From an uncultured Verrucomicrobiota bacterium (GTDB taxonomy: Bacteria > Verrucomicrobiota > Verrucomicrobiia > Verrucomicrobiales > Akkermansiaceae), in NCBI GenBank assembly GCA_913063525.1, contig CAJXYV010000010.1, positions 1 to 36,698 on the forward strand: a stretch of 36,698 nucleotides of DNA, written 5' to 3'. Below, piece after piece: positions 492 through 36,643 of this stretch. The notes under the pieces are model-generated. The model was given only the letters and a program-made list of their open reading frames with translations. It ran no database searches and was not told the DNA's origin. How positions within the stretch are numbered: the stretch's first letter is position 1; every line of letters starts with the position of its first letter. The translations under genes and the position numbers were made by a program.

Positions 492-722
492 CACTGTCCC
501 AACGGAAAAGATCACTGTCCTAACGGAAAAGATCACTGTTCCAACGGAAAAGATCACTGTTCAAACGGAAAAGATCAACGTCCCAACGGAAAAGAACACT
601 GTCCCAAAGGAAAAGAACACTGTCCCAAAGGAAAAGAACACTGTCCCAAAGGAAAAGATCAACGTCCCAACGGAAAAGATCACTGTTCCAACAGAAAAGA
701 TCAACGTCCCAGGGCAGAAGAA
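492..722. repeat. 21-bp tandem repeat array, 11 units
   Basis: Eleven directly abutting 21-bp units, consensus CACTGTCCCAACGGAAAAGA plus a final T or A. They start at 492, 513, 534, 555, 576, 597, 618, 639, 660, 681 and 702; the last is degenerate. Variants alternate CACTG/CAACG at the front and AACGG/AAAGG in the middle; GGAAAAGA is the most constant part. There are no unique spacers. The period is a multiple of 3, so several frames stay open and read as heptads (for example T-V-P-T-E-K-I on plus), but the plus frame has no start codon and no domain is recognisable. 21 bp is also two turns of B-DNA, so each unit presents the same helix face. The function is unknown. Confidence 0.95.
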
Positions 723-17268: not shown

Positions 17269-20200
17269 GTGAAAACTTCGCTAAATAAATATTCAGCAGA
17301 TGCTCGCGTCACTTGGTTGTCGCGTATCGATCGAACATTGGCTCCGTTGAACTTGCTCGGTGGTCGCCGGTTTCTCGTTGGTTTCATTGCCTACTTGTTT
17401 TTCGCCGCTAACAGCTTTGCGAGTATTTACACGGTTACGAATGCGTTGGAATTCAATAGTCTGCCTCGTCTAAACGCCGGTGACGTGGTTAAGATGAGCA
17501 GTGGCAATTACGGTACGATCAACAAAATTCTTGAAAGTACGATTGCCGACGATACGACCGCTAAAAACAATCCTGTCTTGGTCTATGCGGTTACTCCGGG
17601 AGGGGTGATCGTTGATGCTCCCTCGATGATCACTCTGTCGGGCAGAGGGATCACGTTGGCAGGTCTAGACTTTGGGCCAAATAGTGGTCTCATTGACAAC
17701 GGCACCGATGGCTCGACCTACATCGTCGGCACTGCCTCGGGGTCTCGGTACATGACGTTGTCGAATATCCGGTTCAACGGCTGTGCCGCTGGTGATAATT
17801 ACGGCCATTGGGTTTATATCGCTGGTTTTAACTGTACGATTCAGTATTGCAGCTTCATCGAGCACCCCGATACCGTTCGGAATAGCACGGTTTCATTTCT
17901 AGCGAATACGATTGAGGGAAGTACGGCTGTTCCCCGGCTGCACAAGATTCGCTATTGCTATTTTGGGCCGCGCTACGTGGTTCCTCAAAATACTAACAGC
18001 GATTTGGATAACGGCTTCGAATCGATACGGATCGGTACCGGCGACACTCAGACCTTCGACATGCAAGTTACGGTGGAGTGTAACGTCTTCTATCATGCGA
18101 TTTGGCGCTCTGACGGGGCAACGGCCGGCGAGCCCGAGATCATTTCCAATAAATCTAAAAACAACAAGATTCTCAACAACACCATCCTTGAGAGCCAAGG
18201 GGGAATTTGCTTGAGGAGCGGCGACGGTGCTACCGTAGAGGGTAATTTTATCTTTGGAGCTGGATCCTATTCCGGATCAAGCATCGTACTCGGCACATCC
18301 AGTGCCAACCAAGGCGGGATTCGAGTGATTGGCCAGAACCACGTCGTCCGCAACAATTATATTCAGAACGTTTCTGGCACTGGAATTCGTGCAGCTCTCA
18401 GTTTGATGTCTGGCGAATCGGGTTATATCGATGGGGACCCTGCCACCAATCTAGGCAATTTCGGTTCCTACGAACCTGCCCACAATGCCCAGATCTACAA
18501 TAACACCTTCCTGAGTTGCAAAGAGATGAGCTTGGGGCTGCTCTCCACCGACAGTCTAACCAATGGTCCAACCTCTCCAGTTGGCGTCAAGATGTACAAT
18601 AACGTCTGGCAGGGTAACGGCACCGCTAGCGCTGCAATCAACCGCGATACCACCGTCGCGGCCGGCTATCTTCCGATCGAACTGGGAGGGGCGGGTGGGA
18701 ATTACGTCTATGAGACGAGTTCTTCCAAGTACGGATGGACTGCTTTGACTGGTACCTATTCTGCTACTGTCAGCCCTGCAATCACGGAATCATTCGACAA
18801 TTACAAGATTCCCGTTTCAACCAGTCCTCTTCTTGGCGCGGCCAATACAACCTTAGTAGCATCCACGGATGTGCGGGGACTTTCGCGCCCTGCCACCGGC
18901 AAGGACATCGGGTGTTACGAGCGCGAGGTTTCAGGCAGTGGGCTAAAGCCGTTGTTGCAGAGCGATGTTGGTCCAGGTTTTGACGGTGGTCCTTCTTCTT
19001 ATCCTGTCGCGGGTGATGGCGACAGCAAGCCGACAATTTTGACCTCTGCCCTACAAGGTGGTAGCCAGGGTTCTCCATTCTATCAGACGTTACAGGCGAG
19101 TGGCGGAGACGGCCTGCTGACGTGGACGGTTAGTGGTGGAAGCCTGCCAGCAGGCTTGTCTTTGTTCGGCAGCGGATACATTTCTGGGACTCCGACTGTA
19201 AGTGGGACCTACACATTTACGGCTAGGGTGACTGACAGTGATCTGATCGCTCCTGATTCGGCCGAATTGTCTTATACTTTAATCATCGCAGCCGAGGGTG
19301 GAGCTAAACTCGCCGTCACTGCGGCTTCCGCACTCAGTTACACCAGTGGGAATCGTCCCTCATATACCATCGACGCAAAGACCAGCACTCGCTGGACGAG
19401 TTCGTTCTCTCCTTCTGCCGGCAAAACTGGATTTGGTTATGACAGTACTTGGATCCGATGGGATTTGGGCGAGTTGAAGACGATTTCCTATCTGAATATT
19501 GCCTGGTATTCAGGGACATCACGCACCACCAGCTTCAAACTTGAGGTGTCTAACGACGGGACAAACTTCACTGAGTTGCGAACCAAGCAGAGCAGCACTG
19601 GGACGACCGCCAGCTTGGAAAAATACGATTTCACTGACGCATCAGGACGCTACGTGCGTTTGGTCTCGTATGGGAACAACAGCAGTTCTCCCTACAGCAC
19701 CAACATCACGGAGGTTGAAATTTACGGCACAGCCTACTCCGCCCCCGACACTCGGACCGCTCAATCCATTTATTTTGGCACCCTGAGTAGCGTCTTGCAG
19801 AACGACCCACCATTCGCGTTATCTGCGTCCACCACTTCTGGACTTCCAGTTACTTACCAATGTTCTGATTCAAGCGTGGCAACCATCGACGGCAGCACGG
19901 TCACCATCACCGGTCCCGGCTCGGCGTGGATTACCGCTAGCCAACCGGGAGACATCTCCTACAAACCAGCGGCCTCAGTCCAGCAAATCCTGACCGTGAT
20001 CCAGGTGAGCCCCGAAATTACCAGTTCGACCAGCGCCACGGCGGTTGGAGGGCTGCCGTTCCGCTATCAAATCATTGCCACGCGTGAGCCGACTCTTTAC
20101 GGAGCCACCGGCTTGCCAACCGGTCTGCTCCTGAATCCAGCGACTGGAAGAATTAGTGGCACTCCAGTCGTCACGGGCAATTACCCGATTGTCATAACCG

Positions 20201-23200
20201 CTCAAAATACGGCAGGAACTGGCAGTTTGACATTGAATTTAAATGTCATTCCACCGTTCGTGAACGAGACATTTGAATCTTACACGGCGGACGTTGCGAT
20301 TCCTGCCGTTTCACCGACAAGTACGACAAGCGGCATCAAGACGGTGGCCCAAGTGAGCGCCAAGGCGGGAGTAACCGCGATTGGCGGCACTTCTGGCAAG
20401 GTCGCATGGCTCAACGACATAATCGCAGGTGCCGGAGGCGGCGGCACGTTGGAGTTCAATGCGGGATCCTCAGGGCAATCCGCATTGGCGGCATCTTTTG
20501 AGATTTACAACAACGCAACCCCCTCAGCCTCTGGGACACAGCCGATCAATGTATCACTCGCGGCATGGAATTCTTCGAATAATTCTACTGCTGGAGGGAG
20601 TAGCATCAAGCGGATCGTAAGTCTTGAATTCAATCAATTCGGCTCGCTTACGAATCCTTCATGGTATATCAAAAATGCGGGAAGCGTGGCAACCGCTTTT
20701 ACAGGTTCGTATTCACTTGCAAGTAAATTGGCTGTCAATCTTTTTGCGAACGACCACGATACAAACTCAATCAATTATGTTGGGCCAGATGGTAACATTC
20801 GCGCATTGGCAGTGAATAGTTGTGCTGTTTTCATGAATGGCAATTTTATTGGAACGTACGCTTTTCAAACAAATGCAACGGCCAGTGACGGTACAACGCT
20901 TCTGAGCGGCAACAATAATCTCGGTCGCCTCTGCTTCAATACCTCCACAACCAATTTAGGTAACTGGCTGATTGACAATGTAATTGTCTCGGATATGCCA
21001 ACCGACGTCCTTATTCCTGCCGTCGTTACGCCAACGATCACCAGCTCTGCGTCCGTGAGCGGTCAGGCCGGATTTTCCTTTTCCTACCAAACTACCACCT
21101 CGGATTTAGCCGACAGTTTTACCTGCGATGGGATTTTGCCCACTGGACTTTTGTTCAACACGGCCAGCGGATTGATCTCTGGTAGCCCGAACCAGAGTGG
21201 AGTTTTTCCTGTTACGATTTATGCCAGCAACTCGGCGGGTACGGGAGCCCTTGATATCACACTGACGGTGACTGCGGCGCCTGCGAACGTTTTTGGTGGT
21301 TCGGATTCCAGCCTAAATACGGCTGCTAGCTGGAGTCTTGGCTCTGCTCCCAACGCATCAACTAGCGGAGGATCCTACACTGACCTTGTATTTGCTTCCA
21401 CATCTCTCAATCTGACGACTACGTCCGGCAATATTAACGGCAAGTCCTACAATGTTAGCAACGGTTCAAGTTACGTCTTGAGTTCGCTGCGTGCTCTTGC
21501 TGACGCAGGGGGGACTGTTTTCAAGATCGGCAATACGGGATCGACGGACACGTATCCCTACGTCAATACAGTCAGCGGCGTGTCCAATGAAATGCTTTGT
21601 CTCACCAACAGTTCGAGGCTTACTTTTCTGTCTTCAAGCCCAAACAACAGCATCGCGCCGATCCTTCAGCTGCGAAACAATGGAATCTTTCGTATCGAGG
21701 CTGGATCAACGCTGGATGTTCAGACCAGCATTGCCCAAAGTTTGACTAATATCGGTTTCTCGAAGACCGGAGGCGGCAAGCTCATTCTCTCTGGAATCAA
21801 CAGCTACACCGGCACTACCACGGTCAATGCAGGTACTTTGGCTCTCAGTGGAAGTGGGAGCTCGCCACTGACGGTGAAGTCCGGTGCCGTTTTGGAGATT
21901 TCGTTGGGTAGTTCCAGCACTCCATCGGCATCAATCGGGGCCGCCCTGTCTCTGGAGTCCGGATCTCTGGTGAGAATTGTCGGCACGCCTGCGCCGGGAA
22001 GTTCCTACACTTTGGTCACTGCCAGTTCGGTGACTTCACTTGCCAGTTTGGAATCGGCTATCAACGGGTACCAGCTGCTTGTTTCTGGAAATTCGCTAAT
22101 TCTGCAGTCCACCCCCGTGCCCAGTATCACCAGCGCCGCCACAGCTAGCGTTCAGGTAGGAAGCGCCTTCAGTTATCAGATTACAGCGTCCAATAGTCCC
22201 ACTTCGTTTGCTGCCGCCGATCTCCCGGCTGGACTGAACTTGAACACGGTGACTGGCATGATTTCTGGGACTCCGACTGTCGTGGGGAATTATTCCGTAA
22301 CATTGTCGGCGACCAATGCCGGAGGTACTGGCACTGCCAGTTTGACCTTGGCCGTAACTAGTGTTCCGGTACCTGTGCCTGTGCTGTCCAGTTCGATCAC
22401 TGCAAATGGTCAGATTGGCAGCGCCTTTAGCTACCAGATCAGCGCTTCCAATAATCCGAGTTCCTTCGGAGCTGCCAATTTGCCGGCGGGATTGAGTCTG
22501 GATTCAGCGTCCGGCATCATTTCGGGGACTCCTACCATTTCTGGAATCACCACAGTCACGATATCGGCTATCAATGCAGGGGGCACTGGAACTGCCGAAT
22601 TGACCCTCACGATCGTCCCTGCTGCACCAGTCATCACCAGCAATTTGACGGCGAGCGGGCAAGTTGGAAGCGCCTTCAGCTACCAGATTACAGCTTCCAG
22701 CAGTCCGACATCTTTCGGCGTCGGCAATCTACCTGCGGGGCTGAGTTTGGACACCGCGAGCGGAGTGATTTCCGGTACGCCGAGCGTTTCCGGGACGACC
22801 TCGGTCACTCTCTCGGCGACCAACGCAGGCGGCGAGGGGACTGCCAGTTTGACGCTGACCATTGTCCCGGCCGCGATTTCAGCCAATGCTAGTCTGTCCA
22901 ATCTTGTTTTGAGTTCCGGTTCGCTCAGTCCGGTTTTTGCCAGTGGTACGACCAGTTACACGGCCAGCGTCAGCGGACTCTTGGAAATCCAGGTTACTCC
23001 GACCGCGACCAGCAGCGGTGCGACGGTTAAAGTCAACGGGACTAGCGTCAGCTCCGGCACGGCGAGCGGGAAAATTAAATTGCAGGTAGGGAGCAATGTT
23101 ATCACGACTGTGGTCACTGCGCAGGATGGCACAACCATTCTAAACTACACTGTGACGGTCACGCAAAATGATAACTATGACGCGCTAAGGGCTAACTGGC

Positions 23201-26200
23201 AGAGTGCCTTATTAGCCGCCAATACCTCCAGTGCCACCTCTGTCGCAACCAAAGCGACGGGTTATCAGTCCTCGATGATCACGAGTGGCACGAGTTATCT
23301 TTGGAGTGATCTTCCGCTCGGTGCAGTTTCAGCTAACATGAACAGCACCTTCAGTCGACTTCAGTCGATGGCATTGGCTTACGCGATGCCGAACTGCTCG
23401 CTTTACGGCAATGCGAGTCTCGCAGCGGCGGTTGCCAGCGGACTCGACTGGATGAACACCAATGTTTATAAAAAGACGGGCGGGCAGTATGATAACTGGT
23501 TTCACTGGGAAGTGACTTCTCCACAGAATCTATTGAACACCGTCGTATTGCTTTATCCTGCACTCAGTGGCACGCAAATTGCCAATTACTGTGCAGCTGT
23601 CGATAACTACGGGCCAAACAGTGCTAACGCCTACCCCTATTTCAACTGGGCGAACCTGACGGGGGCTAACACCTCCAGCGTGGTATTGGTGATGGCCATC
23701 AATGGGATTCTCGTGAAGAGCAATTCCAAGCTGACGGAGGCTCAAACCAATCTCAGTAAAGTGTTTCCTCCCGTGACGAGTGGTGACGGTTTTTACACCG
23801 ATGGATCCTTCGTCTTTCACGGAAATGTCGCCTACAATGGGCACTATGGTTTTGTTCAGGTCGAGGATATCGCATCCATTGCAAATCTCCTCGCTGGATC
23901 GAATTGGGCCATTTCCGAATCAAATCTAGCTTATGTTTACAACTGGGTGAGCCAGGGACTGGAGCCGTTCTTTTATCACGGTGCCATGATGGATATGGTT
24001 AGGGGACGATCTATCGGCTCGTCGTCCTCCACGGAATACGATGACGGAATCGAGGTGATTGCCGCGATTCGGCAAGTGGCTAATTTTGCTCCGGAACCGA
24101 CCAAGACGGCCCTGACGTCGTTTGCCAATTTCCCGCACCCAGCTACTGGACAATACCATTTTCCAAATAACGACCGAGTGGTTGCGATTCGTAGCGGATT
24201 TGGCTTTGGCCTGAGCATGTCATCGAGTCGGATCGCCAACTTTGAGGATCTGCGGGCGGTCGCCAGCACATCCAATAATTTGAAGGGTTGGTTCACGGGT
24301 GACGGGATGACCTATCTCTATGTCGGGGCGCAGGACACGAATTTCACTGATGATTACTGGGCCACTGTGGATTATTATCACCTCCCCGGCACCACGACGG
24401 AAATGACCACTGCGCCTGGGGCGTCCACTTCGGATCAGGCGTGGGTGGGAGGGGCGGAAGTTTCCGACGCCTATGGAGCTGCAGGAATTTCGCTGCATCC
24501 CGCAAGCGAACGGGTGAGTGGTGCTGCCTCTACGTTGTATGGAAAAAAATCGTATTTCATGTTTGAAAATGAAATCGTCTGCCTTGGTGCCGGAATCAAA
24601 TGCACCAGTGCCAATCAGGTCGATACCACGGTGGAGAATCGTCGCATGGGTAGCTCGGTCACCTCTGCCAATCTCTGGGTGGATGGAGTGCAGACCGTGC
24701 GCGCCCTGGGTTCCAGCGCGACCCTTAGTAGCCCCAAATCCTGCGCAATCGAGGGAGTCGGCGGATATTACTTTTACAACAGCCCTTCCAATCTGCAGGC
24801 GGAATTCGTGGCAAACTCCGGAACCTGGATGGCGGTACATCCTACTGACTCGGACACTGCGACCCACACCAACAACTATCTTAAGCTCTATTACAAACAT
24901 GGGGTTCAGCCACTTGCTGCAAATTACGCCTACACTCTACTGCCGGGGATGTCCCCCAGTAATGTCAGCGCCTATGCCGCAAATCCAAAGACTGTTATCG
25001 TGGCCAATACGGAAAGCGTCCAAGCCGCCAAAAATCAAACGTTGGGCCTAGTCTCGGCGAATTTCTGGGGAATCGCTGGTGGGACGGCGGACCTCATTGC
25101 CTCGAACAAGGCCTCCTCGGTGATCACGTCCGAAACCTACAACACGATTTCCGTAGGGGTTTCTGACCCCACGCAACAAAATACCGGCACGATCACCGTC
25201 ACGCTCAACCGCGCGGCTACCGGCCAGTTATCCGTGGATGCCGGAGTGACGGTGACTCAGCTCTCGCCGAAGATTATATTGTCGGTTAACGTCAATAATT
25301 CGAAAGGGAAAACCTACAACGCCAGCTTCCAACAGGCGGCTCAGGCCCCGGCCATTACGAGCCTTGGCACCGCAACCGCAAATCAGACGGTACCGTTCAC
25401 TTACCAAATCACGGCAAGCAATGCGCCTACGAGTTATAGCGCCACAGACTTGCCTTCAGGATTGAGCATAGACAGCGCCACCGGCCTGATCTCCGGGACA
25501 CCAACCACCATGGGGACTTTTGTCGCGACCATCACTGCGACAAATTCTGGCGGCAGCGGCAGCACTTCTCTGACATTCACGGTTTTGACTGGCCCGCCAT
25601 CGATCACCAGTATCCTAAGCTATGTGGGGAGCAACGGCACAGCCTTCAGTTATCAGATCACGGCAACCAACAGCCCCACGAGTTATTCCGCGACAGGGTT
25701 GCCGACAGGTTTGAGCCTTAATACTTCAACTGGCATCATTACTGGTACTCCGTCTGGGATGACATTGCCGACGGGCATCACGCTTGGTGCCACCAATGCG
25801 GGTGGGACAGTCTATGCTACGCTAATCATCAGTGGCGCGGTGACTTCGATTTCCACGGTGGGATCAAGCACTTGGACCTGTCCCGTCAATGTCACCTCGG
25901 TTCAAGTCGAATGTTGGGGGGCAGGCGGCACTGGTGGTAGCGCGCTAAGAGGAACATCTAACTCTGCAACCGGTGGTGGTGGGGCTGGCGGGGCCTACGC
26001 CAAGTTTTTTTCATACCCAGTGACTCCAGGAATGACCTACTATGTCAATGTTGGTGCAGGTTCGATTAGTTCAACAACGGATGGCTCTGTCGTATCAGGT
26101 GGCGATTCGTGGTTCAATTCTGTAAACTCTCCCTCATCCATCATCATCGCCAAGGGGGGGGCGGGTGGACAGAGTGCCGTTACTACGACTGCTAACAAAT

Positions 26201-27525
26201 ATGGTACGGGTGGAATCGGCACTGCGGCAGGTAGTGCTGGCAACGTCGTGAATGCCGGAGGCAGTGGTGCTACTTCCTCTAGTAGTAATTATGGCGGCGG
26301 CGGAGGTGGCAGTGGAGGGCCTGGCAATACCACTGGTGGTAATGTTGGAATTAGCGCGACTGCGAACTCGGGAGTCGGCGCGCTCGCAGTCAGTGGTGGT
26401 GGAAATGGTGGAAATCCTAACCCGACCTCTGCTTCTTCAGCAGACGGTCAAGCACCAACCATTCCACCGGGTGGGGGAGGTGGCGGTGCAAGAGCTGCTA
26501 GTACTACGCAGAGAATCGGTGGAATTGGTGCTGCTGGCCAAGTCATTTTAACGGCGACGGTTAATGCTGTAGCGACGGTTCCTGATGCGCCAACTGGTGT
26601 GTCAGCGACTGCAGGCAATGCGCAGGCAAGTGTGGGATTCACCGCACCAGCGAACAATGGCGGCGCGACGATCACCAGCTACACCGCCACCGCAAGTCCG
26701 GGTGGCGCTTCTGCCACGGGTGCGGGTTCCCCACTTATTGTCACGGGTCTGACTAATGGCACGGCATACACCTTCACGGTCACCGCGACTAATAGTGTTG
26801 GCACGGGGAGCGCCTCGAGTTCATCGCTTGCGGTTACTCCTGCGACGGTTCCCGGCGCGCCGACTGGCGTGTCTGCGACTGCGGGCGATGCTCAGGCAAG
26901 CGTGGGATTCACCGCGCCAGCGAGCAATGGCGGCGCGACGATCACCAGCTACACCGCCACCGCAAGTCCGGGTGGCGCTTCTGCCACGGGCGCGGGTTCC
27001 CCACTTGTGATCACGGGTCTGACTAACGGCACGGCATACACCTTCACGGTCACCGCGACTAACAGTGCTGGCACGAGCAGCGCCTCGAGTGCATCCACCG
27101 CCGTGACGCCAGTGGCAGCCGTGCAGACGATAGCCGATTGGCGCCAGTCGAACTTCGGGACCTTGCTGAACACCGGCACCGCAGCCGACACCGCGAACCC
27201 TGATGGCGATGCCTTCAGCAATTTGCAAGAATACGTGCTGGGGGCTAACCCGAAGGTTTCAGATTCTGCGAATCTCATCACGATCACTCCTTCGGGCTCC
27301 AATATAGTTCTGGCCTTTGTCGCCAAGCAGGCCGGGACCGGTGCGGGTTATGTCGGGCTGGCACGTCACTATGCTTTGGAAACGACCGTCGACTTGACGA
27401 ATGCAAGTTCTTGGTCTGCATTGACTAACTATTCGAACATCACGGGGGCAAACCAGTCGGTGAGCAGCACCCAAGCTAAAAGCGGAGCCAAATCGTTCTA
27501 TCGGCTCAAGGTGTGGCTGGAATGA
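17269..27525 (+). CDS. Giant modular double lyase: PL6-like plus PL8 with Ig, CBM32, FN3 modules
   Basis: A 3418-residue secreted protein starting at GTG 17269. A long signal region (about 1-52) is followed by a PL6-like beta-helix (about 53-565; Lys295, Arg316, but Ser317 where chondroitinase B has His), a putative Ig (He_PIG) repeat, an F5/8-type CBM32 domain (about 680-825), another Ig-like domain, a jelly-roll-like region (about 1000-1245), an autotransporter-associated beta strand repeat (GGGKLILSGINSYTG near 1500), more He_PIG repeats (eight in all), a cadherin-like beta-sandwich (about 1870-1965), a PL8 lyase (about 1966-2690), two He_PIG, a Gly-rich domain (about 2860-3095), two near-identical FN3 domains (3104-3193, 3194-3283) and a C-terminal module (GDAFSNLQEYVLG...RLKVWLE). 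PL8 residues Asn2134, His2184, Tyr2193 and Arg2245/2247 keep the chondroitinase AC spacing (Asn175, His225, Tyr234). Last gene of the cluster. It may anchor lysis at the cell surface. Confidence 0.88.
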   Translation: MKTSLNKYSADARVTWLSRIDRTLAPLNLLGGRRFLVGFIAYLFFAANSFASIYTVTNALEFNSLPRLNAGDVVKMSSGNYGTINKILESTIADDTTAKNNPVLVYAVTPGGVIVDAPSMITLSGRGITLAGLDFGPNSGLIDNGTDGSTYIVGTASGSRYMTLSNIRFNGCAAGDNYGHWVYIAGFNCTIQYCSFIEHPDTVRNSTVSFLANTIEGSTAVPRLHKIRYCYFGPRYVVPQNTNSDLDNGFESIRIGTGDTQTFDMQVTVECNVFYHAIWRSDGATAGEPEIISNKSKNNKILNNTILESQGGICLRSGDGATVEGNFIFGAGSYSGSSIVLGTSSANQGGIRVIGQNHVVRNNYIQNVSGTGIRAALSLMSGESGYIDGDPATNLGNFGSYEPAHNAQIYNNTFLSCKEMSLGLLSTDSLTNGPTSPVGVKMYNNVWQGNGTASAAINRDTTVAAGYLPIELGGAGGNYVYETSSSKYGWTALTGTYSATVSPAITESFDNYKIPVSTSPLLGAANTTLVASTDVRGLSRPATGKDIGCYEREVSGSGLKPLLQSDVGPGFDGGPSSYPVAGDGDSKPTILTSALQGGSQGSPFYQTLQASGGDGLLTWTVSGGSLPAGLSLFGSGYISGTPTVSGTYTFTARVTDSDLIAPDSAELSYTLIIAAEGGAKLAVTAASALSYTSGNRPSYTIDAKTSTRWTSSFSPSAGKTGFGYDSTWIRWDLGELKTISYLNIAWYSGTSRTTSFKLEVSNDGTNFTELRTKQSSTGTTASLEKYDFTDASGRYVRLVSYGNNSSSPYSTNITEVEIYGTAYSAPDTRTAQSIYFGTLSSVLQNDPPFALSASTTSGLPVTYQCSDSSVATIDGSTVTITGPGSAWITASQPGDISYKPAASVQQILTVIQVSPEITSSTSATAVGGLPFRYQIIATREPTLYGATGLPTGLLLNPATGRISGTPVVTGNYPIVITAQNTAGTGSLTLNLNVIPPFVNETFESYTADVAIPAVSPTSTTSGIKTVAQVSAKAGVTAIGGTSGKVAWLNDIIAGAGGGGTLEFNAGSSGQSALAASFEIYNNATPSASGTQPINVSLAAWNSSNNSTAGGSSIKRIVSLEFNQFGSLTNPSWYIKNAGSVATAFTGSYSLASKLAVNLFANDHDTNSINYVGPDGNIRALAVNSCAVFMNGNFIGTYAFQTNATASDGTTLLSGNNNLGRLCFNTSTTNLGNWLIDNVIVSDMPTDVLIPAVVTPTITSSASVSGQAGFSFSYQTTTSDLADSFTCDGILPTGLLFNTASGLISGSPNQSGVFPVTIYASNSAGTGALDITLTVTAAPANVFGGSDSSLNTAASWSLGSAPNASTSGGSYTDLVFASTSLNLTTTSGNINGKSYNVSNGSSYVLSSLRALADAGGTVFKIGNTGSTDTYPYVNTVSGVSNEMLCLTNSSRLTFLSSSPNNSIAPILQLRNNGIFRIEAGSTLDVQTSIAQSLTNIGFSKTGGGKLILSGINSYTGTTTVNAGTLALSGSGSSPLTVKSGAVLEISLGSSSTPSASIGAALSLESGSLVRIVGTPAPGSSYTLVTASSVTSLASLESAINGYQLLVSGNSLILQSTPVPSITSAATASVQVGSAFSYQITASNSPTSFAAADLPAGLNLNTVTGMISGTPTVVGNYSVTLSATNAGGTGTASLTLAVTSVPVPVPVLSSSITANGQIGSAFSYQISASNNPSSFGAANLPAGLSLDSASGIISGTPTISGITTVTISAINAGGTGTAELTLTIVPAAPVITSNLTASGQVGSAFSYQITASSSPTSFGVGNLPAGLSLDTASGVISGTPSVSGTTSVTLSATNAGGEGTASLTLTIVPAAISANASLSNLVLSSGSLSPVFASGTTSYTASVSGLLEIQVTPTATSSGATVKVNGTSVSSGTASGKIKLQVGSNVITTVVTAQDGTTILNYTVTVTQNDNYDALRANWQSALLAANTSSATSVATKATGYQSSMITSGTSYLWSDLPLGAVSANMNSTFSRLQSMALAYAMPNCSLYGNASLAAAVASGLDWMNTNVYKKTGGQYDNWFHWEVTSPQNLLNTVVLLYPALSGTQIANYCAAVDNYGPNSANAYPYFNWANLTGANTSSVVLVMAINGILVKSNSKLTEAQTNLSKVFPPVTSGDGFYTDGSFVFHGNVAYNGHYGFVQVEDIASIANLLAGSNWAISESNLAYVYNWVSQGLEPFFYHGAMMDMVRGRSIGSSSSTEYDDGIEVIAAIRQVANFAPEPTKTALTSFANFPHPATGQYHFPNNDRVVAIRSGFGFGLSMSSSRIANFEDLRAVASTSNNLKGWFTGDGMTYLYVGAQDTNFTDDYWATVDYYHLPGTTTEMTTAPGASTSDQAWVGGAEVSDAYGAAGISLHPASERVSGAASTLYGKKSYFMFENEIVCLGAGIKCTSANQVDTTVENRRMGSSVTSANLWVDGVQTVRALGSSATLSSPKSCAIEGVGGYYFYNSPSNLQAEFVANSGTWMAVHPTDSDTATHTNNYLKLYYKHGVQPLAANYAYTLLPGMSPSNVSAYAANPKTVIVANTESVQAAKNQTLGLVSANFWGIAGGTADLIASNKASSVITSETYNTISVGVSDPTQQNTGTITVTLNRAATGQLSVDAGVTVTQLSPKIILSVNVNNSKGKTYNASFQQAAQAPAITSLGTATANQTVPFTYQITASNAPTSYSATDLPSGLSIDSATGLISGTPTTMGTFVATITATNSGGSGSTSLTFTVLTGPPSITSILSYVGSNGTAFSYQITATNSPTSYSATGLPTGLSLNTSTGIITGTPSGMTLPTGITLGATNAGGTVYATLIISGAVTSISTVGSSTWTCPVNVTSVQVECWGAGGTGGSALRGTSNSATGGGGAGGAYAKFFSYPVTPGMTYYVNVGAGSISSTTDGSVVSGGDSWFNSVNSPSSIIIAKGGAGGQSAVTTTANKYGTGGIGTAAGSAGNVVNAGGSGATSSSSNYGGGGGGSGGPGNTTGGNVGISATANSGVGALAVSGGGNGGNPNPTSASSADGQAPTIPPGGGGGGARAASTTQRIGGIGAAGQVILTATVNAVATVPDAPTGVSATAGNAQASVGFTAPANNGGATITSYTATASPGGASATGAGSPLIVTGLTNGTAYTFTVTATNSVGTGSASSSSLAVTPATVPGAPTGVSATAGDAQASVGFTAPASNGGATITSYTATASPGGASATGAGSPLVITGLTNGTAYTFTVTATNSAGTSSASSASTAVTPVAAVQTIADWRQSNFGTLLNTGTAADTANPDGDAFSNLQEYVLGANPKVSDSANLITITPSGSNIVLAFVAKQAGTGAGYVGLARHYALETTVDLTNASSWSALTNYSNITGANQSVSSTQAKSGAKSFYRLKVWLE
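26154..26161 (+). repeat. Eight-G homopolymer in the giant lyase gene
   Basis: A G8 run encodes K-G-G-A-G-G in the glycine-rich domain, downstream of both lyase domains. A slip here would remove the FN3 and C-terminal modules but keep both lyases. Confidence 0.9.
26578..27117 (+). repeat. 270-bp tandem duplication encoding two FN3 domains
   Basis: Two head-to-tail 270-bp copies (26578-26847 and 26848-27117) encode two 90-residue fibronectin type III domains. A 66-base stretch (26655-26720 and 26925-26990) is identical in both, including third codon positions, which points to recent duplication or gene conversion. Confidence 0.9.
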
Positions 27526-34565: not shown

Positions 34566-34928
34566 TTAAATCCCCTCCGGCTTGGCCTTTCGCGGCCTGC
34601 CGCGGCGCTGTTCGCTTTTCGGAACGTAGCCGAGCGCGCGGTAAAACGGGCTTTCGTAGCCGAATTCCGAGGTCCCCCGCACCGTGTTGGCGATCAATCC
34701 CAGATTCTCTTTGATCTGGTCGTCCTTCTGCTTCCGCTTCAGGATCAGTCCGGAGACTATCGTGCGTGCCGCCGCGATCTGCTCGCGAATCTCGCGGGCC
34801 TCGGCGATGTCGGCCGCCAAATCGTCGATGCTGAACCCGGCGATCTCTGTGTCCGCAGCGTACGCTTTCCAAGCGGTGAGGAAATGCTTGCTGCGGAAAG
34901 TGGTGGGCTTGTTATCCAAGAGAGACAT
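34566..34928 (-). CDS. Small basic protein with AT-hook-like C-terminus
   Basis: A 120-residue protein of unknown family. Residues 35-80 are predicted long helix (D-L-A-A-D-I-A-E-A-R-E-I-R-E-Q, then KRKQKDDQIKENL), which could dimerise. A conserved-looking S-P-F-Y-R-A-L-G-Y-V-P-K-S-E follows, and the C-terminus is Q-R-R-G-R-P-R-K-A-K-P with the R-G-R-P core (Arg109-Pro112) of an AT-hook, a minor-groove DNA-binding motif for AATT-type sites. The gene starts just downstream (on minus) of the AT-rich repeat array. No signal peptide, so cytoplasmic. Function by homology is unknown; DNA binding is inferred from the tail only. Confidence 0.7.
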   Translation of the reverse strand: MSLLDNKPTTFRSKHFLTAWKAYAADTEIAGFSIDDLAADIAEAREIREQIAAARTIVSGLILKRKQKDDQIKENLGLIANTVRGTSEFGYESPFYRALGYVPKSEQRRGRPRKAKPEGI

Positions 34929-35504
34929 GGCGTGATAAGTGGCGGGTTAGAGACAAGAATTGCGGGTCGTCGCGCTCTGGCGACTCTCTTCTCTGCCGCA
35001 ATTCCCACTTTAATTCAAAAGATTTGCACTTTTAATTCAAATTCACCCACCTGTATGGAAATTTAAGCCAGTGAAAATTCCCATACCGGTGGTTCCATGG
35101 GAATTTAAGCCGGTGAAAATTCCCATACAAGTGGTCCAATGGGAATTTAAAGCGGTGAAAATTCCCATACAGGCAGTCTCATGGGAATTTAAAGCGGCAG
35201 CGTAAGGATCCAAAGCGGCGAAAATTCCCATACCAGTGGTGTCATGGGAATCTAAAGTGGCAAAAATTCCCATACCAGTGGCCTCATGGGAATTTAAAGT
35301 GGTGATAATTCCCATATCACTAGCCTCATGGGAATTTAAAGCGGTGAAAAATCCCATACCAGCGGCTCCATGGGAATTTAAACGCGTTGCATTGCCATCC
35401 AAACCGGTTGGATTGCCAATGAAACCGGTTGGATTGCCAATGAAAGCCGCGGCATTCCTCACGCAGGCCGTTTTGTTCGCAACGGCGCTGCCTCGCTTGG
35501 CATC
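34929..35504. other. Intergenic region between prfA and the AT-hook-like gene
   Basis: It contains the 21/42-bp repeat array (about 35005-35442) and no recognisable gene. The stretch 34929-35004 (likely promoter of the AT-hook-like gene on minus) and 35443-35504 show nothing else. Reading frames cross the array on both strands, but they follow the repeat and match nothing I know. Confidence 0.7.
35005..35442. repeat. Array of 21-bp half-units forming 42-bp palindromic repeats
   Basis: ATGGGAATTTA or a close variant recurs at 35055, 35097, 35139, 35181, 35244, 35286, 35328 and 35370; spacing is 42 bp except once 63 (3 x 21). Each unit carries a matching inverted arm AAATTCCCAT about 20 bp later (for example 35139-35148 with 35159-35168), so each 42-bp unit is two 21-bp half-units in opposite orientation. 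Two CACTTTAATTCAAA-like copies at 35005 and 35026 begin the same phase, and two exact 21-bp copies (35401-35421, 35422-35442) end it. The half-units are helically phased and AATT-cored. The function is unknown. Confidence 0.93.
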
Positions 35505-36587
35505 TCAGAGCCCAGCTTCGGCGAGGCGCTCGTCCATTTCGGTCTTCTGGAGCTCGTTGGTGAACTCGGTGAGGTCGCCGGCGACGACGCCGGTGAGGTT
35601 GTGCGAAGTGAAACCGATGCGGTGGTCGGTGATGCGCGACTGCGGAAAGTTGTAAGTGCGGATCTTTTCCGAGCGGTCGCCGGAACCGATCAGCGAGCGG
35701 CGGTGGCTGGAATACGCCTCCTGCTGGTCGCGCAGTTTCTGCTCGTAGAGTTTGGAGCGCAGGATCTGCAGCGCCATTTCCTTGTTCTTGATCTGCGAGC
35801 GGCCGTCTTCGCAGCGGACATAGAGGCCCGTGGGAAGGTGGAAAATCTGCACCGCCGACTCGGTGCGGTTGACGTGCTGGCCACCGGCACCGCCCGCGCG
35901 GCAAACTTCGATCCGCAGGTCTTCGGGCTTTAGCTCGACGTCGACCTCCTCCGCCTCCGGCAGCACCGCCACGGTCACGGTGGACGTGTGGACGCGGCCC
36001 TGGGTCTCCGTCGCCGGCACGCGCTGGACGCGGTGCACCCCCGATTCGTACTTCAAATAGCGGAAAACCTCCTGGCCGGTGACCTTCAGGATCACCTCCT
36101 TAAATCCGCCGACTTCCGACGGGCTGCTCTCCAAATGCTCGCACTTCCAGCCGCGCAGGTCCGCGTAGCGCTGGTACATCCGCATTAACTCGGCAGCAAA
36201 CAGCGATGCCTCGTCGCCGCCAGCCCCGGCGCGGATTTCGATCAGCGCGTCGCGGTCCTCGTTCGGATCCGCCGGCAGCAAGGCGTACTGCAGCTCGCCG
36301 CCGAGCTTGACGATCTCCGCCTCCAGTCCGGGGATTTCCTCCGCCGCCATCGCCGCAAAGTCCGGATCGTCCGACTTCGCCAGCTCCTGGTTGTCCGCCA
36401 GATGGCGCTTCGTCGCTTCGATTTTCTCCCACAGTGCCAGCGTTTGCTTCAGCTTCCCGTGTTCGCGCAGGATCTCCGTCGCGCGCTTCGGGTCGGCAAA
36501 AAGTTCCGGATCACCCACCGCCTCCTCCAGCTCCGAGAAGCGGTCGCGGCGTTTGGCGATGAGCGAAGAATAGTCCATGCCCGCCAT
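35505..36587 (-). CDS. prfA: Peptide chain release factor 1
   Basis: A cytoplasmic class I release factor of 360 residues recognising UAA and UAG. G-A-G-G-Q-H-V-N carries the universal GGQ that triggers peptidyl-tRNA hydrolysis. P-A-T-E-T fits the P-x-T anticodon-like tripeptide of RF1 rather than the S-P-F of RF2. The N-terminal helical domain and I-R-A-G-A-G-G-D-E-A are typical, and the protein ends D-E-R-L-A-E-A-G-L. ATG at 36587 chosen; an ATG nine bases further on (36578) is also possible. No prmC methyltransferase gene is adjacent in the window. Confidence 0.97.
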   Translation of the reverse strand: MAGMDYSSLIAKRRDRFSELEEAVGDPELFADPKRATEILREHGKLKQTLALWEKIEATKRHLADNQELAKSDDPDFAAMAAEEIPGLEAEIVKLGGELQYALLPADPNEDRDALIEIRAGAGGDEASLFAAELMRMYQRYADLRGWKCEHLESSPSEVGGFKEVILKVTGQEVFRYLKYESGVHRVQRVPATETQGRVHTSTVTVAVLPEAEEVDVELKPEDLRIEVCRAGGAGGQHVNRTESAVQIFHLPTGLYVRCEDGRSQIKNKEMALQILRSKLYEQKLRDQQEAYSSHRRSLIGSGDRSEKIRTYNFPQSRITDHRIGFTSHNLTGVVAGDLTEFTNELQKTEMDERLAEAGL

Positions 36588-36643
36588 CAAACCCCGAAAC
36601 CCCCAAAACGGAAATCCCGAAATCGCACAAGCAGGCGAAAAAG

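Follow-up and report, generated by a model that had tools for sequence, protein, structure and literature searches.

A phased 21-bp repeat array upstream of a small unclassified helical protein gene in an Akkermansiaceae genome, one case of a recurring module

The array between prfA and a small gene

The window, a 36,698-bp stretch of DNA from an uncultured Akkermansiaceae bacterium that was analysed as a whole, carries a tandem-repeat array flanked by prfA and by a gene for a 120-aa protein, both on the minus strand. The features referred to below are as follows.

492..711, no strand assigned: gene-less 21-bp array of another unit family (CACTGTCCCAACGGAAAAGAT, 10.5 copies)
34566..34928, minus: partner gene P0001, 120 aa, 127 bp downstream of the main array
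34929..35005, minus: spacer from array to partner gene, which would hold promoter and leader
35006..35047 (approximate), minus: pair of decayed units (GGTGAATTTGAATTAAAAGTG, CAAATCTTTTGAATTAAAGTG) on the side of the gene, same register
35055..35382, no strand assigned: main array of alternately inverted 21-bp units, 42-bp period, arms ATGGGAATTTAA / GAAAATTCCCATA
35193..35213 (approximate), no strand assigned: decayed 21-bp unit (CTTTGGATCCTTACGCTGCCG on the minus strand) behind the 63-bp step, register kept
35386..35445, minus: block of a second unit sequence (TTTCATTGGCAATCCAACCGG on the minus strand) on the prfA side, three direct 21-bp copies in register with the main array
35505..36590, minus: prfA (peptide chain release factor 1), distal neighbour of the array

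The ATGGGAATTT arms of the main array were located at 35055-35370, with the spacing of 42/42/42/63/42/42/42 bp that the initial annotation had claimed. On the plus strand, ATGGGAATTTAA-like arms lie at 35055, 35097, 35139, 35181, 35244, 35286, 35328 and 35370. Inverted arms are found between them at 35073, 35115, 35157, 35220 and 35262; those at 35304 and 35346 are weaker. The arm count of 15 compares with a maximum of 8 in 100 dinucleotide shuffles of the window. By TRF the period is 42 bp, the match between copies is 84-86% and indels amount to 0-1%. The layout is thereby confirmed. When the array was laid out in 21-bp lines, the register was continuous from ∼35006 to 35445, and the 63-bp step is explained by one decayed 21-bp unit that sits there without loss of register. 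The units are contiguous 21/42-bp tandem copies without unique spacers, in line with the earlier statement that this is not a CRISPR. A strict sigma-70 scan of the spacer between array and gene did not find a promoter.

Similarity of the prfA region to relatives stops at ∼35504, which places the array and the small gene outside the conserved prfA neighbourhood. A second array in the same genome, 83% identical to the window array, adjoins a truncated copy of the partner gene. The array itself had been recognized correctly in the initial annotation, which missed the partner gene and the gene-less arrays elsewhere. Two further repeats were seen in the window: 7.9 perfect copies of TGCGGAA at the end of the contig (36644-36698), with other 7-bp arrays present in this genome and its relatives, and a 270-bp tandem duplication (26572-27095, 91% match) within an ORF of 3418 aa (17269-27525).

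Recurrence of the module and conservation of its spacing

The window array is one case of a recurring, apparently undescribed module in which a 21-bp-register array is combined with a gene for a small unclassified helical protein. P0001 has ∼30 paralogues in this 3.0-Mb genome. Tandem-repeat and autocorrelation scans revealed arrays upstream of most of them, with periods of 21, 42 or 63 bp and with units that are unrelated between loci. Arrays in the same register were also found upstream of homologues in other species of the genus, in other genera and in other families. The bias was quantified by a lag test on 900 bp beside each gene, in which the best lag within 12-63 falls on 21, 42 or 63 by chance in 3/52 of cases (6%). 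Upstream, such a lag was best at 22/28 loci in this genome, 14/23 in the genus and 19/25 elsewhere; downstream, the respective counts were 6/29, 2/23 and 4/27. In the 1.52 Mb sampled of this gene-rich genome (G000), an array began or ended no further than 1 kb upstream of 11 of 15 testable genes, and downstream of none. When placement was random, 0.6 genes on average had an upstream array, and never more than 3 in 2000 trials. The gap between array and gene ranges from 75 to 1000 bp across loci, and at some family members, mostly distant ones, an array was not detectable. A search of the open-access literature did not find a paper on 21-bp arrays in Verrucomicrobia.

Among 384 genomes searched in the class, 26 carry the gene family, as does one MAG labelled Acidobacteria. 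At this locus (L095, JAIVJI010000006.1) a 35% identical homologue is preceded by 21-bp units with a palindromic core, e.g. AGTACCGAGGTACT. Another record, L094 (CALPMD020000088.1), is titled Akkermansia muciniphila MAG HRS-ES7-bin-77 and is identical to G414:C88, from a relative, over 3063 bp; its species label may be unreliable.

Over 656 steps between neighbouring units we counted 2168 mismatches, equivalent to 3.3 substitutions per step, and 13 steps were off-register, i.e. better fitted by a spacing other than 21 bp. At L246, columns that vary freely separate the copies of an invariant core (TTTACCCAT) and indels are absent, as expected of sites under selected spacing. L005, L006 and L095 look like older arrays in which short cores are held in register. 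These data are best read as showing that the arrays conserve spacing and not sequence. Relatives keep the two-turn register described in the initial annotation, although on units of unrelated sequence; the annotation missed that spacing, and not the 42-bp unit that it suggested tracing, is what is conserved. Dyad symmetry at the 21-bp period was significant by column shuffling (p<0.05) in 30 of 83 arrays with ∼4 expected, where, as in the other unit statistics, the arrays are not all independent since some belong to a common unit family. A 7-bp sub-period reached p<0.05 in 8/83 arrays, with a mean excess of 0.01. Bending by A/T tracts, which had been proposed for the window array, is not supported as a general principle: an A4/T4 tract occurs in only 19/83 arrays and mean GC is 0.52. 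An RNA hairpin with compensatory arms was likewise rejected as a general rule, since arms covaried within a copy in only 7/53 arrays. Rfam searches of 20 and 12 loci gave no match at or above the gathering score.

Unit identity follows the locus. Unit similarity was 0.73 and 0.67 at orthologous loci. In several paralogue pairs with proteins 66-87% identical, it lay at background level (0.37-0.39). L027/L029 departs from this (0.70), its array having been duplicated jointly with the gene. The orthologues L237 and L039 differ by one whole 42-bp unit. Co-evolution of unit and protein gave a Mantel r of 0.18 (p 0.003), a signal driven by close pairs and absent below 55% protein identity. A composite array was seen at L150:16168-16561, where one unit family flanks a block of another in a single 21-bp register.

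Partner protein, cassette boundaries and gene-less arrays

P0001 shares 22-54% identity with the 27 other members of alignment A1, and the protein is under purifying selection (dN/dS 0.14-0.41). AlphaFold predicted for P0001 a helix at residues 9-23 and a 52-residue helix at 34-85 (mean pLDDT 92, pTM 0.61). The C-terminal tail contains an AT-hook-like RGRP motif (QRRGRPRKAK), with RGRP core and basic flanks; judged by this sequence motif, DNA binding by the tail is putative. The RGRP tail is also present in L005 and L006 and a related SGRP form in L007, L243 and L251, and most members lack it. Its occurrence in the window copy and close paralogues agrees with their A/T-containing units. Scans of 28 members against Pfam, PHROGs and PADLOC yielded just three scattered single-member Pfam hits, each with E > 0.004, and a convincing match was found neither in NCBIfam (one member scanned) nor among PDB sequences. 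Foldseek searches of PDB and BFVD with the predicted structure returned nothing below E 1, and the structure searches did not match the predicted fold to known DNA-binding folds. The best VIA-align match, to histones (Z 4.1 over ∼51 residues at 7 A rmsd), is at the noise level for long helices. A catalytic domain or nuclease-like motif was not recognized. Phage, plasmid and viral-contig collections contained no relative of the partner protein, with one member as query for the plasmid and phage records.

What paralogue pairs have in common is ∼90-180 bp of upstream DNA and the gene, joined in many copies by a 3' region of three hairpins; beyond this, homology stops. At L004/L033 and L027/L029 the homology takes in the array and begins at its distal end. 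The upstream piece of L025 contains a promoter-like site, located between array and gene. The three-hairpin region follows the stop codon in many direct-array cassettes (e.g. L017, L020, L022, L039); its last stem is terminator-like, changes on both sides were seen in 14/24 pairs, and an Rfam match was not found. It is absent after the window gene. Folding z-scores for a structured 5' leader were inconsistent. Decayed gene remnants also occur (L132:3272-3363). From the sequences compared, cassettes and remnants form a pattern that a dispersing and decaying element would leave. An insertion site or duplicated target was not found, and neither was a clean empty site; L031/L247 retains the array with rearranged flanks.

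TRF detected 73 arrays of the 21-bp family in the 1.52 Mb of G000. Most have no family gene close by, and the majority are intergenic; the ratio of gene-less to gene-linked arrays is ∼6 to 1 in this sample. Several gene-less arrays have their unit in common with a gene-linked array. The CACTGTCCCAACGGAAAAGAT unit of the gene-less array in the window recurs at L175:618-869 and is similar to the unit beside the family gene L252 in G414, the nearest sampled relative; the unit at L155:1350-1550 resembles that beside another G414 gene, L254. Array numbers were compared in four 200-kb samples from other genomes beside the G000 sample. Non-coding arrays were absent from the gene-free congener G003, a single one was located at the only gene of G135, three were present in G194 (6 genes) and none in the sample of G012 (5 genes), in which arrays do occur at two of the genes. 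The gene-rich G000 had more arrays than the four other genomes sampled, and the comparison suggests that array number depends on gene dose, with few genomes and with G012 as an exception. Arrays are undercounted because many contigs end inside them.

Comparison with known systems and proposed function

Iteron/rep, type III toxin-antitoxin and RAYT/REP systems may be regarded as the closest analogues, resembling the module only in layout. In iteron-controlled plasmid origins, an iteron array of direct repeats, spaced by about two turns and facing one side of the DNA, lies upstream of rep. The module shares the ∼two-turn repeats (here in a 21-bp register) upstream of a small-protein gene. In contrast to iteron/rep, it is chromosomal and dispersed, with ∼30 gene copies and many gene-less arrays, its unit sequence differs at nearly every locus, and inverted 42-bp versions are common. 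The partner protein is without a match in any library family and therefore has none to Rep or winged-helix models; the 28 members lacked a Rep match in Pfam and PHROGs, and a long-helix fold is predicted where Rep would be a winged helix. RAYT transposases are a multi-copy small-protein family tied to dispersed palindromic REP sequences, including repeat copies without a gene. The module likewise combines a multi-copy small-protein family with dispersed repeats, some of them gene-less. However, its repeats are fixed-period tandem arrays of locus-specific sequence, and the protein matched neither the Y1 HUH transposase nor any other transposase family. Partition centromeres (parS/ParR and TubC/TubR-type iteron arrays) also have a small DNA-binding protein adjoining phased repeats, as the module has a putative DNA binder beside a phased array. 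Unlike these, the window copy has no partition NTPase among its neighbours, there are many copies per chromosome, and a ParR/TubR-like match to the partner protein is absent from the sequence libraries. In type III systems (ToxIN, CptIN, TenpIN), RNA repeats of 36 and 45 nt that differ strongly by locus precede a small ORF (PMC4627078). Tandem repeats upstream of a small ORF are found at most module loci as well, but the module has a constant 21-bp period, many gene-less arrays and, at L025, a promoter-like site downstream of the array. Searches of Pfam, NCBIfam, PADLOC and PDB sequences gave no convincing match to the Kid-like ToxN/CptN/TenpN, and the prediction is all-helical.

We propose, with a probability of about one half, that the window array supplies the cis component of a two-part element, patchily distributed and dispersing, and is a platform for the small helical protein of this element. 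The element would consist of 21-bp units arrayed upstream, in direct or alternately inverted orientation, and of a gene downstream of them that encodes a helical protein of ∼120-130 aa with a basic tail. This protein, likely in dimeric or larger form, would sit on successive sites of the array, each two helical turns from the next and all on one DNA face, and the two-turn geometry would set the 21-bp period. Occupancy may serve autoregulation of the protein and/or anchoring, maintenance and spread of the element. Constant two-turn spacing on changing sequence is most simply accounted for by a repeated protein assembly on one face of the DNA, and the occupying protein is most likely the product of the gene next door. 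The terms "regulator landing platform" and "mobile repeat family", both offered in the initial annotation, are tenable for the window array. In its favour are the upstream association of array and gene, the register kept through many mismatches, the dyad symmetry, the lack of coding signs in the arrays, purifying selection on the protein, the trend with gene dose and the promoter-like site between array and gene at L025. Several observations argue against a platform: known DNA-binding folds were not matched, many arrays have no gene nearby, some family members lack a detectable array, and the G012 sample is array-free. Moreover, unrelated units beside proteins that are 66-87% identical are hard to reconcile with sequence-specific binding by a conserved surface. 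We tentatively consider, with the odds against it, that the small helical protein both imposes and uses the 21-bp tandem register on essentially arbitrary sequence.

The main rival holds that the protein or a recruited host factor drives duplication of upstream DNA in 21-bp steps, blind to sequence, with the geometry of the machine setting the period and the unit sequence being incidental. One period on unrelated sequences, similar proteins beside unrelated units, the whole-unit difference between L237 and L039, two unit types in one register (in the window and at L150) and the array-free sample of the gene-free genome all speak for such a process. We nevertheless think it unlikely: the partner protein has no recognized catalytic domain or nuclease-like motif, the decayed arrays L005, L006 and L095 appear to retain short cores, which points to selection after formation, and the units common to gene-less and gene-linked arrays indicate that some arrays spread by copying. 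Ordinary slippage minisatellites, near which a gene cassette happened to insert, would explain why cassettes (promoter, gene and 3' hairpins) are alike while flanks and units differ, and why gene-less arrays outnumber gene-linked ones about sixfold in the sample. This is improbable, because neutral slippage fixes no single period in 70-odd mostly unrelated arrays, nor does it hold the register through 2168 mismatches. In addition, the gene-free relative sampled had no arrays and the array is always upstream.

Less probable still is a type III toxin-antitoxin-like pair, in which a repeat RNA transcribed from the array would restrain the small protein encoded downstream. The layout is that of toxIN/cptIN, with short tandem repeats upstream of a small ORF and repeats very different between loci (PMC4627078), and many arrays fold better than shuffled sequence. 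Against this stand the promoter-like site between array and gene at L025, the wide range of array-to-gene gaps, the all-helical prediction as opposed to the Kid-like CptN/ToxN, and a fixed 21-bp period without parallel in repeats said to vary in length; the many gene-less arrays would be unaccounted for, and arm covariation was confined to few arrays. The coding alternative, in which 21 bp correspond to seven codons of a heptad-repeat protein, could draw on a 139-aa open frame on the minus strand across the window array and on the several open frames found in most direct arrays, an unavoidable property of any 21-mer that lacks stops. Of 57 arrays, however, 6 are closed in all six frames and none has a period-3 variability bias, which makes it very improbable that the arrays are translated. 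The initial annotation had named translation and loss of phase in relatives as the observations that would count against its idea; the phase is kept, evidence for translation was not found, and the idea survives.

To our knowledge, known systems that pair repeats with a protein conserve the recognized sequence. Here, one period extends over 70-odd arrays of one genome and across genera and families, the repeat sequence changes by locus, and such arrays always lie upstream of one unclassified protein family. The arrays may also help to explain broken assemblies, as many of this genome's contigs break off within one. If confirmed, the module would represent a spacing code in DNA that a small protein reads or, alternatively, a machine for writing arrays of fixed geometry, and either reading would bear on the birth of tandem repeats.
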